A stretch of DNA of 64,000 nt, taken from the IMG/VR virus record IMGVR_UViG_3300031974_001349, positions 1 through 64,000 of that record. One strand, 5' to 3'. Below the pieces are notes generated by a model. The model did no database searches and had not been told where the DNA came from. It saw only the letters and a program-made list of their open reading frames with translations. This stretch comes from a virus. The position numbers were made by a program, and so were the translations under genes. Of this stretch, positions 22,708 through 40,385 are shown in pieces. Within the stretch, counting starts at the first letter, position 1. Each line of letters starts with the position of its first letter.

Positions 22708-22854
22708 TTAAAACCCGTTGTTTGGATATAACTTATCCTCGGGGTAACCACGTTTCTTTACTTCTTTCTTACGATCGATGTGGGTAGATGGCCGATTGAA
22801 CTTCGGAGCATTCTTTGCTACCGGATTCGATCGTCTGGTAGACTTCTTCTTCAT
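22708..22854 (-). CDS. short basic phage protein, unknown
   Basis: 48 residues, opening MKKKSTRRSNPVAKNAPKFN and continuing with PSTHIDRKKEVKKRGY. The pattern NPVAK...FN(R/K)P.THxDRKKE recurs in small proteins of many phages, so it is taken as real despite its size. It overlaps the C terminus of the HExxH protein (22769-23254) by 86 bases in another frame. Rich in Lys and Arg, so it may bind nucleic acid. Function unknown. Confidence 0.6.
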   Translation of the reverse strand: MKKKSTRRSNPVAKNAPKFNRPSTHIDRKKEVKKRGYPEDKLYPNNGF

Positions 22855-23254
22855 AACGATATGCTTCTTCTTCCCAAGGTTGATCAGCATACCCGACGTT
22901 AACGTACTCGACTCCGTCGAAGATATGCTTGTAAACAATACTGTGCCTCTGGTCACACCAAGTCAAACCGATGTGGAGCAGTCGACCCGTGAGGATCTGA
23001 ACTGCGTGAATCAGTTCGTGTGCGATATGCACTTTCAATTGAGTATCGTCGACATCGTTGGTTCGCAATCGGACATCGACACGATCCTCTGTACCGTCTG
23101 CCTCACCCGAAAAGATTCCGATATCATCGGCAAAGGACACCTTGATGTATCCTCCTAAACGACCAATCCCAAGTGACTCCGCACAACGAAACACGTAGTC
23201 AGAGATCTCGAAACTGGGAGAGTCCTCGACGATGACGTTCTCTGCAATATTCAC
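22769..23254 (-). CDS. HExxH metallopeptidase-like protein
   Basis: 161 residues, with a zinc-binding motif AHELIHAVQ near residue 80 and a PWEEEAY segment near residue 128 whose Glu could be the third ligand (gluzincin style). No signal peptide, so it acts inside the cell. It shares its HExxH plus PWE.EAY layout with the gene at 28647. Neighbours are small genes in a coupled operon. A true protease, or a fold reused for another purpose, cannot be settled by eye; SprT-like is another possibility. Confidence 0.6.
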   Translation of the reverse strand: MNIAENVIVEDSPSFEISDYVFRCAESLGIGRLGGYIKVSFADDIGIFSGEADGTEDRVDVRLRTNDVDDTQLKVHIAHELIHAVQILTGRLLHIGLTWCDQRHSIVYKHIFDGVEYVNVGYADQPWEEEAYRYEEEVYQTIESGSKECSEVQSAIYPHRS

Positions 23255-23481: not shown

Positions 23482-23642
23482 TACTGATCTCCTTTCATTT
23501 CGTGACGGTACTCTCTCTTCAACCACCACTTGTACATTCTAAAATATTCTGCTGAATCGTAGAGGGGACTGCGACCCGTGAACTGTGTCACTTCGTCGCA
23601 GTGCTCGTACCACTTCTGACTACACCAATGACGGAAACTCAT
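23481..23642 (-). CDS. 53-residue phage protein, unknown
   Basis: The frame opens MSFRHWCSQKWYEHCDE and ends KREYRHEMKGDQ. It exactly fills the gap between its neighbours with TAATG overlaps at both ends, a strong sign of real coding. It is rich in Trp, Tyr, His and Arg (six aromatic residues in the first 15 or so). The C-rich opening (CS, HC) might bind a metal. No family is recognised. Confidence 0.65.
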   Translation of the reverse strand: MSFRHWCSQKWYEHCDEVTQFTGRSPLYDSAEYFRMYKWWLKREYRHEMKGDQ

Positions 23643-24190
23643 TATGCGTACCAACTACGGTAGAAGTCTTTGCCTTCTTCGGCAGGACTAGCATATCGAA
23701 CGTCGTCGATGTTGATGCCACGACCAGTGATTCGTTTCTTGAACTCAGCACCGATGAACTCATCCTTGACAGGAACGACACGGTCACTCATGAAACCTTC
23801 ACTACCCTCAACAGAGGCAACCGCAATCTCACGCAGAGTAACAGTCGCACCCTTCTTGGCAACAACCTGGTAAGCATCAATGTTAGTCTGCTCCCAACCC
23901 CAAGACGCAACGTAGAGATCACCTTCCTTGACACTCTCAAGGGCAGCTGCCTTAGCAACAGCACGGGCAATCTTACGATCTTGCTTCTGAACTTCAGCAC
24001 GATCAAGATCAACAAGGAACTGCTCAACGTGCTCGATCATGCGAGCAACACTACCGTAACGGTAAGCAAACTCAGTCTTGTAACCCAGACGGGCACGTTT
24101 GCTAGGACGTTGACAAACCGCAGTGATCTTATCTTCGTCGATGTTCAACTCAAGACCACGTGCTTCGTACTTCTCAATCAATGTTTTCAT
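23642..24190 (-). CDS. conserved phage protein with SWGWEQTNID motif
   Basis: 182 residues from the ATG at 24190, which has GAGG at a 7-base spacing. A central GDLYVASWGWEQTNIDAYQV segment (about 105-125) is a recognisable domain of phage and bacterial proteins of unknown function, followed by beta strands. The N terminus is helical. First gene of a long operon behind promoter 24220-24247. No catalytic motif was seen. Confidence 0.65.
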   Translation of the reverse strand: MKTLIEKYEARGLELNIDEDKITAVCQRPSKRARLGYKTEFAYRYGSVARMIEHVEQFLVDLDRAEVQKQDRKIARAVAKAAALESVKEGDLYVASWGWEQTNIDAYQVVAKKGATVTLREIAVASVEGSEGFMSDRVVPVKDEFIGAEFKKRITGRGINIDDVRYASPAEEGKDFYRSWYA

Positions 24191-24207
24191 AATCAATCCT
24201 CAACTCA

Positions 24208-24247
24208 ATTTACACAGTAATTATAGCAAATCTGGAACAAATGTCAA
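24208..24247 (-). promoter_or_regulatory. sigma70 early promoter with overlapping palindrome
   Basis: TTGACA (24242-24247), 16-base spacer, TATAAT (24220-24225) on the minus strand, with an A/T-rich tract just upstream (GTGTTGACA core). An imperfect 15-bp palindrome (ATTTAC ACA GTAATT on plus, 24208-24222) overlaps the -10; near-identical palindromes occur at 46754 and 48443. Confidence 0.8.
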
Positions 24248-24265
24248 CACTTTTTTAAAACTTTT

Positions 24266-24502
24266 TTATGGTAATTTCTCACAATAGATCGGATCTATTT
24301 TTCGTTCAACAATCTCCATCGCACATGGGTCACTGGCAAAAACCTTCCAAGTCCCATCGTACTGACTTGCAATCGTGATCTCGAACTCCTCTCCGTAAAC
24401 GTCATACGCCTCAAACTTGAACTCGTAGAAGATGTTAGGTTCTCCTAATCGTTCTACTAACCGTTCATAAGACGCATCAATATATCCCTGTAAACAACTC
24501 AT
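24266..24502 (-). CDS. small phage protein with LGEP motif
   Basis: 78 residues. The pattern SYERLVERLGEP near residue 12, then F..E.YDV and TWKVFASDP, resembles a small family in which a LxxxFGEP helix is followed by two or three beta strands. The RBS is GAGG upstream of the ATG at 24502. Its 5' leader is about 185 nt and holds three tandem UNCG hairpins (24522-24679). Function unknown. Confidence 0.6.
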   Translation of the reverse strand: MSCLQGYIDASYERLVERLGEPNIFYEFKFEAYDVYGEEFEITIASQYDGTWKVFASDPCAMEIVERKIDPIYCEKLP

Positions 24503-24521
24503 GACAACCTCACTGGGGAAA

Positions 24522-24679
24522 GGAGAAACAGTGAACCCCGAAGGTTCCTAGTCGAGAGACTCCTGATCTCCTCAAAACTGAGGGGAGAAACAGTGAACCG
24601 TAGTTCCTATTCCGACTCCAGATGTCCCTGGGGGACAAGCAGTGGACCGAAGTCCCTAGTCGTGAGTCCAGATCTCCCC
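24522..24679 (-). repeat. leader RNA with three tandem UNCG hairpins
   Basis: On the minus strand three units of about 50 nt occur: 24631-24679, 24582-24629 and 24522-24571. Each has an outer stem (GGGGA/TCCCC, GGGA/TCCC, GGAGA/TCTCC), a shared GACTAGG-like side strand and an inner hairpin closed by C-G around UUCG, UACG or UUCG. Inner stems differ by compensating changes: GGAC/GTCC, GAAC/GTTC, GAACC/GGTTC. The sigma70 promoter 24694-24721 puts the start about 8 nt before unit 1, so the array is the 5' leader of the 24266 gene. C(UUCG)G hairpins are known in T4 mRNA; the array is not a known element to me. Confidence 0.75.
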
Positions 24680-24693
24680 AACTCACAATACAC

Positions 24694-24721
24694 ATTGTAC
24701 CTGTTTTGGAAACAAAGTCAA
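24694..24721 (-). promoter_or_regulatory. sigma70 early promoter of the hairpin leader
   Basis: TTGACT (24716-24721), 16-base spacer, TACAAT (24694-24699). Predicted start near 24687. A 12-bp palindrome CAAT-ACAC-ATTG (24686-24697) overlaps the -10. The GTGTTGAC core and A-tract are shared with the other early promoters. Confidence 0.8.
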
Positions 24722-24744
24722 CACTTTTTTGACTATTTCTTAGA

Positions 24745-25362
24745 CTATTTTGTTATATCAAAATTACTTTTTATAGGAGCACGTTCGACTGCCTTCAACC
24801 ATGCCACGGGTTCTTTGATCACTGGTCGAGTGTACTTCAGTTTATGCTTTCGGAACGATTCCTTTAGACCCTTTGCTTCCGCCTGACCTAGGAACCGTGA
24901 CACCAGTTTGAGCAGTGCCCAACGGAACCGATAGTCGTGACGATTGAATCCTGCAGCATGTGCCAGTTCATGTAGGATCACGTACTTGTTGGTTCCCGAC
25001 TGACTGTCGAGTTTGATCATATTACCATAGCAGAGACCTGCCCATGACCTCGACTTGAATTCATAGAGATTGACTTTCTTGTATGCCTTGCGAACACGTC
25101 GCATGTCCATATCGTCGTTAGCAAACTGCTCCCACAGTTTAGACTTGAGCACTCGTTTCACAAACTTCTCGCAGTCTTTGAACTCCATCCTCTCTCGCAC
25201 GTGGGGAAAGTTCTGCTCGAAGTCCCACTCTGCATTGTAGGTCTTTTGACGTTGAGAGTCACGGGTTGGTAGTCGAGACTTGCGGCGGACATAGTCGTCG
25301 TAGTCCCATGCTTGGGTCTTGGTCAGACCCGCAGAAATTGCTTTGCGATATGCTACTGTCAT
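24745..25362 (-). CDS. SprT-like HExxH protein
   Basis: 205 residues. HELAHAAGFNRHDYRFRW at about 133-150 has the HExxH...H(D/G)xxF layout of SprT-type zinc proteins; upstream Trp/Tyr/Cys residues and a basic C terminus follow. It differs from the other two HExxH proteins by having a His-Asp third-ligand site. Such small proteases cut DNA-bound proteins in eukaryotes, and SprT-like phage genes are common; the substrate is unknown. Its ATGA overlaps the basic-tail gene. Confidence 0.6.
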   Translation of the reverse strand: MTVAYRKAISAGLTKTQAWDYDDYVRRKSRLPTRDSQRQKTYNAEWDFEQNFPHVRERMEFKDCEKFVKRVLKSKLWEQFANDDMDMRRVRKAYKKVNLYEFKSRSWAGLCYGNMIKLDSQSGTNKYVILHELAHAAGFNRHDYRFRWALLKLVSRFLGQAEAKGLKESFRKHKLKYTRPVIKEPVAWLKAVERAPIKSNFDITK

Positions 25363-25694
25363 GCCTTCTTCTTTCTCACCGTCTTCTTAACCGGAGTCTT
25401 CTTGACAACTGCCTTCTTCTTGGCAACTGCTTTCTTCTTGGTAGGTGCCTTTCTTTTGGTGGGTGCCTTCTTCTTGGGGGGTTCCCAAGTCTTTGCGAGG
25501 AACTCCTCAACGGACAACCCACACTCACGAAGTGCTTTGTGAAATCTCTTTACGTCCGACATCTCCCATGAGTTGTTAATGAACGATCCAAAGTGGTCTG
25601 CTACTTTATCACCCAACTGAATGTTTTCTTCAGTCTCTTTATCGAAGATGTAGCGCACCTTCTTGGTGAAGTTTAACTTGACGATTTTAGACAT
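25359..25694 (-). CDS. DNA-binding-like protein with histone H1-type Lys/Ala tail
   Basis: 111 residues. A compact N-terminal half (about 1-70) is followed by a tail of PPKKKAPTKRKAPTKKKAV and more AKKK/VKKT units. The repeated KKKA and K.P triplets resemble the C-terminal tail of histone H1 and of bacterial H1-like (AlgP/Hc1-type) proteins. RBS AAGGAG precedes ATG 25694. It could coat or condense DNA, or bind RNA or membranes. The tail is encoded by near-tandem hexamers and may vary in length. Confidence 0.7.
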   Translation of the reverse strand: MSKIVKLNFTKKVRYIFDKETEENIQLGDKVADHFGSFINNSWEMSDVKRFHKALRECGLSVEEFLAKTWEPPKKKAPTKRKAPTKKKAVAKKKAVVKKTPVKKTVRKKKA

Positions 25695-35922: not shown

Positions 35923-35947
35923 AAAAAACCGGACCCGAAGTCCGGTT
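35922..35947 (-). terminator. intrinsic terminator with TTCGG loop
   Basis: Stem AACCGGAC/GTCCGGTT around CCGAA (35927-35947); on the minus strand it is followed by seven T. It ends the radical SAM operon. Confidence 0.88.
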
Positions 35948-38814: not shown

Positions 38815-38842
38815 TTTTAAAAATGGGGGTCCGAAGACCCCC
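38815..38842 (-). terminator. intrinsic terminator with UUCG loop
   Basis: Stem GGGGGTC/GACCCCC around CGAA (38825-38842), UUCG on the transcribed strand, followed by ATTTTTAAAATAAT. It ends the carbamoyltransferase transcript. Confidence 0.88.
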
Positions 38843-38864: not shown

Positions 38865-40385
38865 CTAGAAAACCTTCACATCATACTTCTGTTCCCACAT
38901 CTCGGCGTCCAGTTCGTCATTAACCATAGGACGACCGCGAATGTTGAGACTTGTGTTAAGTAACATAGGCACTCCGGTTCGATCGAAATACTCCTCGATC
39001 ACTTTTCGGAATACCGATTGACAATCCTTCCTTACAATCTGAACACGAGCAGATCCATCAACGTGTGTTACTGGTGCATAATCATGCTTTGCCCAAGACG
39101 TGAACTGCATGTACTCGTTCATTGGACCATCAAAATATTTGTGCGCAAACTCCTCTAGGATAGCAGGAGCAAACGGACGATACTTCTGTCGTCTCTTAAT
39201 TGTGTTGACCGTATCCTGTACGTCGTATCTCACATCGGCAATAAGAGACCGATTGCCAAGTGCTCTAGGACCGAACTCAGCCCTTCCATTAGCAATACCA
39301 CAATAACGATATTCGAGCAGATGATCAACGACAGCACTGGGATCAATAGGATTGGTAATATCATATCCCGCATATGGACTCCAAATAAGTTTATCCTTAC
39401 CTGTTGCTTTTGCCCATGAACGTGCGGCAGTACCTAGACCTGAACCAGCATCCGTCGGTGATACTGCAATGTGCACTTCGTCGAACAACTCAAACAGACG
39501 TGAGTTGATTACGACGTTCTGTGCGCACCCCCCAGAGTAACACAACTTGCTACCATATTTAGCAGCTTCACGCATTATACCCATGATTGCATAGTCTGCG
39601 AAGTCTTGGACGGCACGTGCCGCAACCTTGTCTTCTACTGAGAGGATCTTTTCTTTGAATGATGATCTCCACTTCTGACGTGCTTTCTCTCGTGGAGATG
39701 TTTCGAAATCACCTACTGCGATACCTTTCTCGATTTCTGGTGCAATGTCTTCAAGGTTATCGTACCAGTTGATCAACCATTGAGTGATGCCCCAAGATTC
39801 TTCGTCGGTCTCGTGGTATGCAGATAGACCCATGACCACGTACTCATCCTCAAGTGGACGCAGTCCCATAATCTTAGTTGCGGTTGTATAGACTAGACCG
39901 ACAGACTTCGGGTAGTGCCACTCTTTGATCAAATTGAAATTGTGATCCATGATGGTCGCAGTCTGCAACTCACCGACACCGTCAATCGATACTAGGACAG
40001 TATCCTCAGATGAGTCCCAAGGACGGGTGTAGAATGCGGAAGCACAGTGCGACTCGTGGTGTAAGTGATTGACATCAAAGTGTTGTGCGTTAGGAATGAT
40101 GAGACGGTTGAAGGTCTCTTCTGCGGTGTCCGGACGATCCTTTAAATGATCTGTAGATCCCGTGACACCGATGCCTCCACGCATATCAAACTTGAGGGTT
40201 TGGTCTTCGTAGAAAGAAACATGGTCGTCTTCATCAACCATGTCCCAGAGAACTTCCGGAAGGTGAGGATCGTTTTTCTTTTTGGAGTAACGTTCCCCGT
40301 GGGTTGCGAACTCGACTACACCATCTTCGTTGATGATTGCGAATCCTGCGTCATGATAATATTCACTGTATCCTACGTATTTCAT
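38865..40385 (-). CDS. NodU/CmcH/TobZ-type carbamoyltransferase
   Basis: 506 residues. The Kae1-like N-terminal half has YHDAGFAIINEDG, HLHHESHCASAFY (metal-binding HxxxH) and VLVSIDGVGE; the C-terminal half has YRCG-free NGRAEFGPRALGNRSLIAD with TGVPMLLNTSLNIRG, the family's hallmark for carbamoyl transfer. Enzymes use carbamoyl phosphate and ATP to carbamoylate sugars or antibiotics. Similar genes occur in cyanophages. Single-gene late unit (promoter 40413, terminator 38815). Target may be a sugar or modified base. Confidence 0.85.
   Translation of the reverse strand: MKYVGYSEYYHDAGFAIINEDGVVEFATHGERYSKKKNDPHLPEVLWDMVDEDDHVSFYEDQTLKFDMRGGIGVTGSTDHLKDRPDTAEETFNRLIIPNAQHFDVNHLHHESHCASAFYTRPWDSSEDTVLVSIDGVGELQTATIMDHNFNLIKEWHYPKSVGLVYTTATKIMGLRPLEDEYVVMGLSAYHETDEESWGITQWLINWYDNLEDIAPEIEKGIAVGDFETSPREKARQKWRSSFKEKILSVEDKVAARAVQDFADYAIMGIMREAAKYGSKLCYSGGCAQNVVINSRLFELFDEVHIAVSPTDAGSGLGTAARSWAKATGKDKLIWSPYAGYDITNPIDPSAVVDHLLEYRYCGIANGRAEFGPRALGNRSLIADVRYDVQDTVNTIKRRQKYRPFAPAILEEFAHKYFDGPMNEYMQFTSWAKHDYAPVTHVDGSARVQIVRKDCQSVFRKVIEEYFDRTGVPMLLNTSLNIRGRPMVNDELDAEMWEQKYDVKVF

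Follow-up and report, generated by a model that had tools for sequence, protein, structure and literature searches.

Glutamine riboswitches fold as a three-way junction. The glnA and Downstream-peptide riboswitch candidates are found in tandem or ahead of short unknown open reading frames (ORFs), and manA and wcaG RNAs occur in T4-like cyanophages (PMC2864571). Riboswitches do occur in marine phages of this sort, as shown by the glutamine riboswitch of the related phage Melnitz (PMC9004378). Here we describe a leader RNA from a 64,000-nucleotide stretch of viral DNA (the window), taken from the 70,637-base record IMGVR_UViG_3300031974_001349. The closest named relative of this phage is Phage C48C1 (Kyanoviridae), at ~80 to 82% identity over parts; the next closest ribonucleotide reductase is that of OM43 phage Melnitz, and gp32 is nearest to those of T4-like cyanophages. 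In setting, the described RNAs nearest to this leader are the glnA/Downstream-peptide RNAs and the manA/wcaG leaders of T4-like cyanophages. With glnA and Downstream-peptide (RF01739 and RF01704) the element shares a marine or phage setting, a position near the transcription start, and, for glnA, a tandem arrangement (PMC2864571, PMC9004378), but its junction sequence is different and it is built as a circularly permuted double with a common helix P2. RNAs of the glutamine class lie in the 5′ UTRs of nitrogen genes or short ORFs; the ORFs behind the element are short and mid-size. Like manA and wcaG, it is a structured 5′ leader in T4-like marine phages (PMC2864571); those RNAs go with sugar, photosynthesis, or light-related genes, and the element matched neither covariance model.

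No Rfam 15 family scored above its gathering score in the window. At E values up to 10, the window copy returned only a chance snoRNA match on the other strand, the related locus L007 returned none, and L105 and L139 returned only chance matches, while the RF01739 and RF01704 covariance models gave no match at gathering score or at E ≤ 10. Divergence from a riboswitch or RNA family already known, for instance the glutamine (glnA/Downstream-peptide) class, would fit the tandem arrangement, the phage setting, the short ORF behind, and the three-way junction, which is also the glutamine-class fold. However, searches of the transcribed strand reached no Rfam 15 family at an E value of 10 for the window copy, for L007, or for the L139 element, and the match in L105 was a chance miRNA hit beginning at the last bases of the element; we consider such an origin highly improbable. 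The original prediction of an early leader RNA with no described counterpart is upheld in that relatives covary, Rfam holds no match, and the same promoter-proximal position recurs in many phages. We conclude that the leader represents a new family, of a kind already described but unusual in its permuted-double build. T4-like phages of aquatic samples thereby gain a structured RNA family that Rfam 15 does not contain.

The leader is predicted to be transcribed from the minus strand. A sigma-70 type promoter at 24694 to 24721, as originally proposed, has a −35 box TTGACT (24721 to 24716), a 16-nt spacer, and a −10 box TACAAT (24699 to 24694), matching the consensus at 10 of 12 positions, and relatives have equivalent promoters upstream. 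Placing the start 7 nt past the −10 box, at 24687, yields a predicted 5′ leader of 185 nt (24503 to 24687, minus), in agreement with the length first suggested, ahead of a 78-codon gene (24266 to 24502, minus; ATG at 24502) with 26 relatives. The next gene has a perfect (12/12) sigma-70 promoter with an extended −10 at 24220 to 24247 (minus) and a short leader without the element. ARAGORN found no tRNA or tmRNA in the window, in keeping with the earlier statement that the leader is not a tRNA. A 61-codon ORF across the leader (24510 to 24695) was discarded since its start falls within the −10 box, and a leader peptide was likewise rejected because reading frames, compared by eye, vary between members. 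A stem GUGAGU/ACUCAC at the start of the window leader (GAGAGU/ACUCUC in L004) was set aside on inspection, being broken in L008 and L009 and impossible in other groups.

The three hairpins with UUCG, UACG, and UUCG loops that had been noted are present in the sequence. As a single sequence, the leader folds about as well as its shuffles (z = −1.04; 24 of 200 shuffles fold equally well), so that structure was tested by comparison with relatives. The claim of selected RNA structure accordingly stands on covariation among relatives, and not on the single-sequence fold, which is unremarkable. These comparisons show the conserved unit to be a compact three-way junction of ~45 to 60 nt formed by helices P1, P2, and P3, rather than a UNCG hairpin. 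Single-junction forms span 43 to 57 nt and follow one layout, in which P1 (e.g., GGGGAGA/UCUCCCC) is followed by UCUGG-N, P2, UAG, P3 with a bulged A, CUG, and YU. P2 of singles varies (GUC..GAC, GCG..CGC, GCC..GGC, and GCA..UGC), the sequence of P1 drifts in divergent singles, and P3 loops in relatives range from 3 to 5 nt (UACU, UUU, UCA, CUCGG, ACCAA, and others); UNCG loops were accordingly rejected as the conserved feature. In an alignment of 13 singles, which was fitted to the model and in which some bias towards pairing is expected, pairing holds in 98.7% of pair cells and both sides have changed in 11 of the 18 pairs, compared with 85% pairing in shuffles and 38 to 58% with slid partners. 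A first, independent MAFFT alignment of seven singles gave 99.2% pairing with five pairs changed on both sides. The helices of divergent members found by pattern are hardly constrained by the search pattern, and their complementarity therefore provides independent support.

The junction strands, A-UCUGG and UAG...ACUG-YU-U, are near-invariant. Since most members were found with patterns fixing ATCTGG, TAG, and ACTGYTT, this invariance is overstated and is in part ascertainment. Exceptions in the core are the third unit of the window, with UCAGG, and one class of doubles with CUGG and a one-base J3/1.

In double forms, two such junctions are joined through P2. Across 13 of 13 distinct doubles, P1 (7 bp) joins the 5′ strand of unit 1 to the 3′ strand of unit 2, and P4 (5 to 6 bp) joins the 3′ strand of unit 1 to the 5′ strand of unit 2, with pairs such as UGUCC/GGACA, UGUCUC/GAGACA, UGCCC/GGGCA, and YGAUC/GAUCG. 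Self-closure of each unit, counted from the junction, amounts to 0 to 1 bp in these 13 doubles. P2, common to both junctions, also covaries (UCUCAAC/GUUGAGA, UCCCGAC/GUCGGGA, and UCUCGAC/GUCAGA), and a MAFFT-based count agrees, with 98.1% paired. Because the second junction of a double is entered via P2 instead of P1, it amounts to the single in circularly permuted form. The permuted junction strands remain constant while P2 and P4 (in doubles) and P1 (in divergent singles) drift, which would be expected were the junction the functional part, and it is to the junction that this unusual build points. A GGA sponge of the CsrA type was rejected, most doubles having UCUGGU instead of GGA at that place.

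The window copy is predicted to consist of one double followed by a self-closed single, unit 3. The original prediction of three units, each with an outer stem, is revised in this respect, since units 1 and 2 form one double and only unit 3 closes on itself. The double (24582 to 24679, minus, as are all its parts) is matched in both halves by models R1 and R3. Its P1 pairs GGGGAGA (24673 to 24679) with UCUCCCC (24582 to 24588), the 7-bp helix found in all doubles. The J1/2 strand UCUGG of junction A (24668 to 24672) is present in all matches found; ATCTGG was demanded by the pattern searches used for collection, but not by the search with the 78-aa protein. P2 is formed by UCACGAC (24659 to 24665) and GUCGGA (24611 to 24616), pairing with 24616 to 24611 with one base bulged, where relatives have UCUCAAC/GUUGAGA or UCCCGAC/GUCGGGA. 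P3 of junction B (24640 to 24658) reads UAG-GGAC-UUCG-GUCC-A(bulged)-CUG, and P3 of junction A (24591 to 24609) reads UAG-GAAC-UACG-GUUC-A-CUG. The P4 hairpin, UGUCCC-CCA-GGGACA (24623 to 24637), is replaced in relatives by GUCC/GGAC, GUCUC/GAGAC, GCCC/GGGC, or GAUC/GAUC, and the J1/2 strand UCUGG of junction B (24618 to 24622) has the variant CUGG in L006, L139, and L155. The single (24520 to 24573, minus) comprises P1 GAGGAGA/UCUCCUU, J1/2 UCAGG, P2 AGUC-UCUC-GACU, and P3 GAACC-UUCGG-GGUUC with a bulged A. R1, whose training set includes unit 3, matched it at 24519 to 24574 (76.9 bits, E = 2.3e-18), and R3, built without it, scored 65.7 bits (E = 7e-16). An offset pairing of GGGGA with UCCCC of unit 1 could form in the window alone, but relatives do not preserve it.

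Nearest-neighbor energies in several doubles favor a rival hairpin, UCUGGU...ACUAGG, the totals differing by as much as 12 kcal/mol. Given this energetic preference, the invariant strands could, on modeling grounds, serve otherwise than in a junction. UAG is able to pair with CUG or CUGG, and this choice of partners could in itself constitute a switch.

Searching with the 78-aa protein returned 26 loci, 14 of which have the element upstream (L003 to L015 and L017), with an extra gene between element and 78-aa gene in L006 and L007; the remaining loci have a short plain leader, a different leader, or other sequence. The HNH-like gene of L006 (2585 to 3001) lies directly behind the element and ahead of the 78-aa gene, a position that suggests a homing-type insertion at the leader-gene boundary. 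A core pattern search yielded about 34 true contigs, many with the element before other genes, and relaxing the pattern brought in a divergent group (L094, L098, L101, L106, and L092) as well as L105, which is a contig of 122.5 kb from another phage. A further match, L184, is tentative, as it follows a small gene and has no adjoining promoter. Pattern matches L032, L034, L047, L054, and L058 were set aside as chance on reading, and L093, L095 to L097, L099, L100, L102 to L104, L107, and L185 to L190 were treated as chance because their model scores were weak or absent. Three pattern matches in bacterial MAGs were unsupported by R1 and R3, and no host copies appeared in 146 plus 200 sampled genomes, a weak result given that no positive control genome was included. 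Two leaders used as DNA queries against isolated phages gave no credible match.

Wherever the element is present its stems are compensated, so that the refutation proposed earlier, stems not kept in relatives, did not materialize for the fold; what some close relatives do lack is the whole element, between the same promoter and gene. It is absent, for example, from the complete C48C1 genome, though the same promoter and neighbors are kept there. We conclude from these absences that the element is accessory. At the element site upstream of the 182-aa gene, L176 has only a stump, GGGGAGAGUCCCC, suggestive of a deleted junction.

The position of the element is constant and the genes behind it are interchangeable. 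P1 begins 13 to 14 nt from the −10 box in 14 of 16 leaders, the other two being L094 (11 nt) and L105 (18 nt). The element ends 15 to 29 nt ahead of the start codon in 14 leaders that differ in the gene they precede. At least eight unrelated gene families, of short and mid-size ORFs, follow it: the 78-aa family, a 182-aa family, a 173- to 176-aa family, metallopeptidase-like and HNH-like genes, and at least four small ORFs. The element is thus not tied to the 78-residue gene. A T-run after P1 exceeds the 99th background percentile in 18 of 21 leaders, the window, L008, and L009 being the exceptions.

One explanation for this distribution is a trans-acting small RNA (a decoy, regulator, or anti-defense RNA) that has its own early promoter and stops at the U-tract following P1, the next gene being reached by read-through. 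The single locus per positive record (47 records scanned, then ten more), standing at many different genes, an accessory presence and absence like that of anti-defense cassettes, and the terminator-like P1 and T-run in most leaders are all compatible with it, and RNA anti-CRISPRs (Racrs) provide a precedent for phage noncoding RNA (PMC10651486). Racrs are likewise small phage RNAs acting early in infection, but they mimic CRISPR repeats (PMC10651486), whereas the fold here is a covarying three-way junction and not a simple repeat-like hairpin. Furthermore, the tight distance to the start codon is kept throughout, the leaders read contain no second promoter for the gene that follows, and a good terminator past unit 3 is missing from the window copy. 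Fixed spacing at both ends of the element is hard to reconcile with a free-standing RNA gene, and we regard a trans-acting role as possible but unlikely. The motif GUUCACUGC is similar to the beginning of type I-F CRISPR repeats; since the remaining parts come in a different order, mimicry through this motif was rejected and the likeness treated as coincidence.

That P1 begins 11 to 18 nt past the −10 box regardless of the gene would also suit a 5′-end stabilizer, in which a fold near +8 slows 5′-dependent decay by RNase E or blocks the 5′-3′ exonuclease RNase J, at the extreme as a flaviviral xrRNA does. Flaviviral xrRNAs stop RNase J1 in vitro and share with the element a compact three-way junction and tandem copies (PMC5760640), and an unrelated structured RNA stands at the same place in L016 and in tandem with the element in L139. 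However, an xrRNA depends on threading its 5′ end through a ring and on a loop pseudoknot, which does not fit P3 loops that are 3 to 5 nt long and variable in sequence, and xrRNAs belong to another virus world and another location. A stabilizer would not need invariant junction bases, and the predicted start leaves ~5 to 12 unpaired 5′ nucleotides, probably sufficient for decay enzymes; on balance we find this role rather unlikely. The second structured leader (GUGGGGUGMGCGGUUUCGAAGAUUCCGACUGAYAGGUAAGUGCCGCAAGUCCCCACGUUUUUU) lies at 2925 to 2990 of L016, where it replaces the element, and at 1885 to 1950 of L139, and also occurs in L197, L199, and L202. Its Rfam matches are chance only, and its outer stem and U-run resemble a terminator.

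The place of the element just downstream of an early promoter is that of HK022 putL, which raises the prospect of a put-like cis antiterminator, a nascent RNA that binds RNA polymerase after the early promoter and leads to terminator read-through. Both are structured RNAs of similar size with no coded partner, and both open an early phage transcript made from a sigma-70 promoter (PMC9378689). HK022 put is composed of two stem-loops (~70 nt) present in two copies, and an enclosing three-way junction is not described for it (PMC9378689), whereas the element is a three-way junction enclosed by P1, with one locus per record and single-junction forms. No terminator was found close downstream of the leader in the window, the sole terminator-like site in 23500 to 25500 lying within the leader itself, and the next gene is served by its own promoter (24247 to 24220). 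Antitermination of this kind is therefore very unlikely in our estimation.

The reading that we put at about even is that the leader represents a new family of cis-acting, receptor-like structured RNAs controlling the gene behind. Tight spacing to both transcription start and ribosome-binding site favors action in cis, and a conserved junction amid free helices favors recognition by a ligand or protein. As in riboswitches, a receptor-like core is conserved within a 5′ leader, though that conservation is partly ascertainment. The near-invariant junction strands presumably create a receptor, either for a small ligand or for a protein. The element fills the space from transcription start to ribosome-binding site, with a U-tract close after P1 in most relatives, and occupancy of the junction would probably decide whether P1 closes beside the Shine-Dalgarno sequence or U-tract and, hence, the output of the first gene. 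Output through P1 may take the form of attenuation at the U-tract in most relatives and of translation in others. Several observations run against a receptor: the downstream genes have no common known function, unlike those of most metabolite riboswitches; the window copy, L008, and L009 lack a strong T-run after P1; and a conserved sequestering of the Shine-Dalgarno sequence was not found on inspection, L105 being unable to form one. Sequestering by the 3′ strand of P1 was discarded as inconsistent in L105 and L033.

Alternatively, the elements might be phage-specific 5′-terminal modules, a portable cap for early genes, whose junction, in either orientation or as a shared-stem dimer, is recognized by or blocks a host machine (RNA polymerase, the ribosome, or a 5′-dependent nuclease), such that the early gene behind is protected or timed; we offer this as a tentative and less probable idea. 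Should either a metabolite or a host machine be bound, the element would represent a further RNA control device in the early phage program. Its strict 5′-end place before unrelated early genes, together with clean absence in close relatives, makes its function directly testable.

UUCG loops are also used in apparent terminators of the window phage. A terminator-like hairpin at 38836 (minus) reads GGGGGUC-UUCG-GACCCCC-AUUUUU, and a similar one at 35940 (minus) reads CCGGAC-UUCG-GGUCCGG followed by a U-run. Small early genes at 24745 to 25362 and 22769 to 23254 (both minus) encode zinc-peptidase-like motifs, HELAH and HELIH, respectively, and the relative of the latter gene in L051 has a weak SprT-like Pfam match. 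A further gene, at 38865 to 40385 (minus), encodes a Nol-like carbamoyltransferase (PHROG 1601) in this T4-like phage genome.
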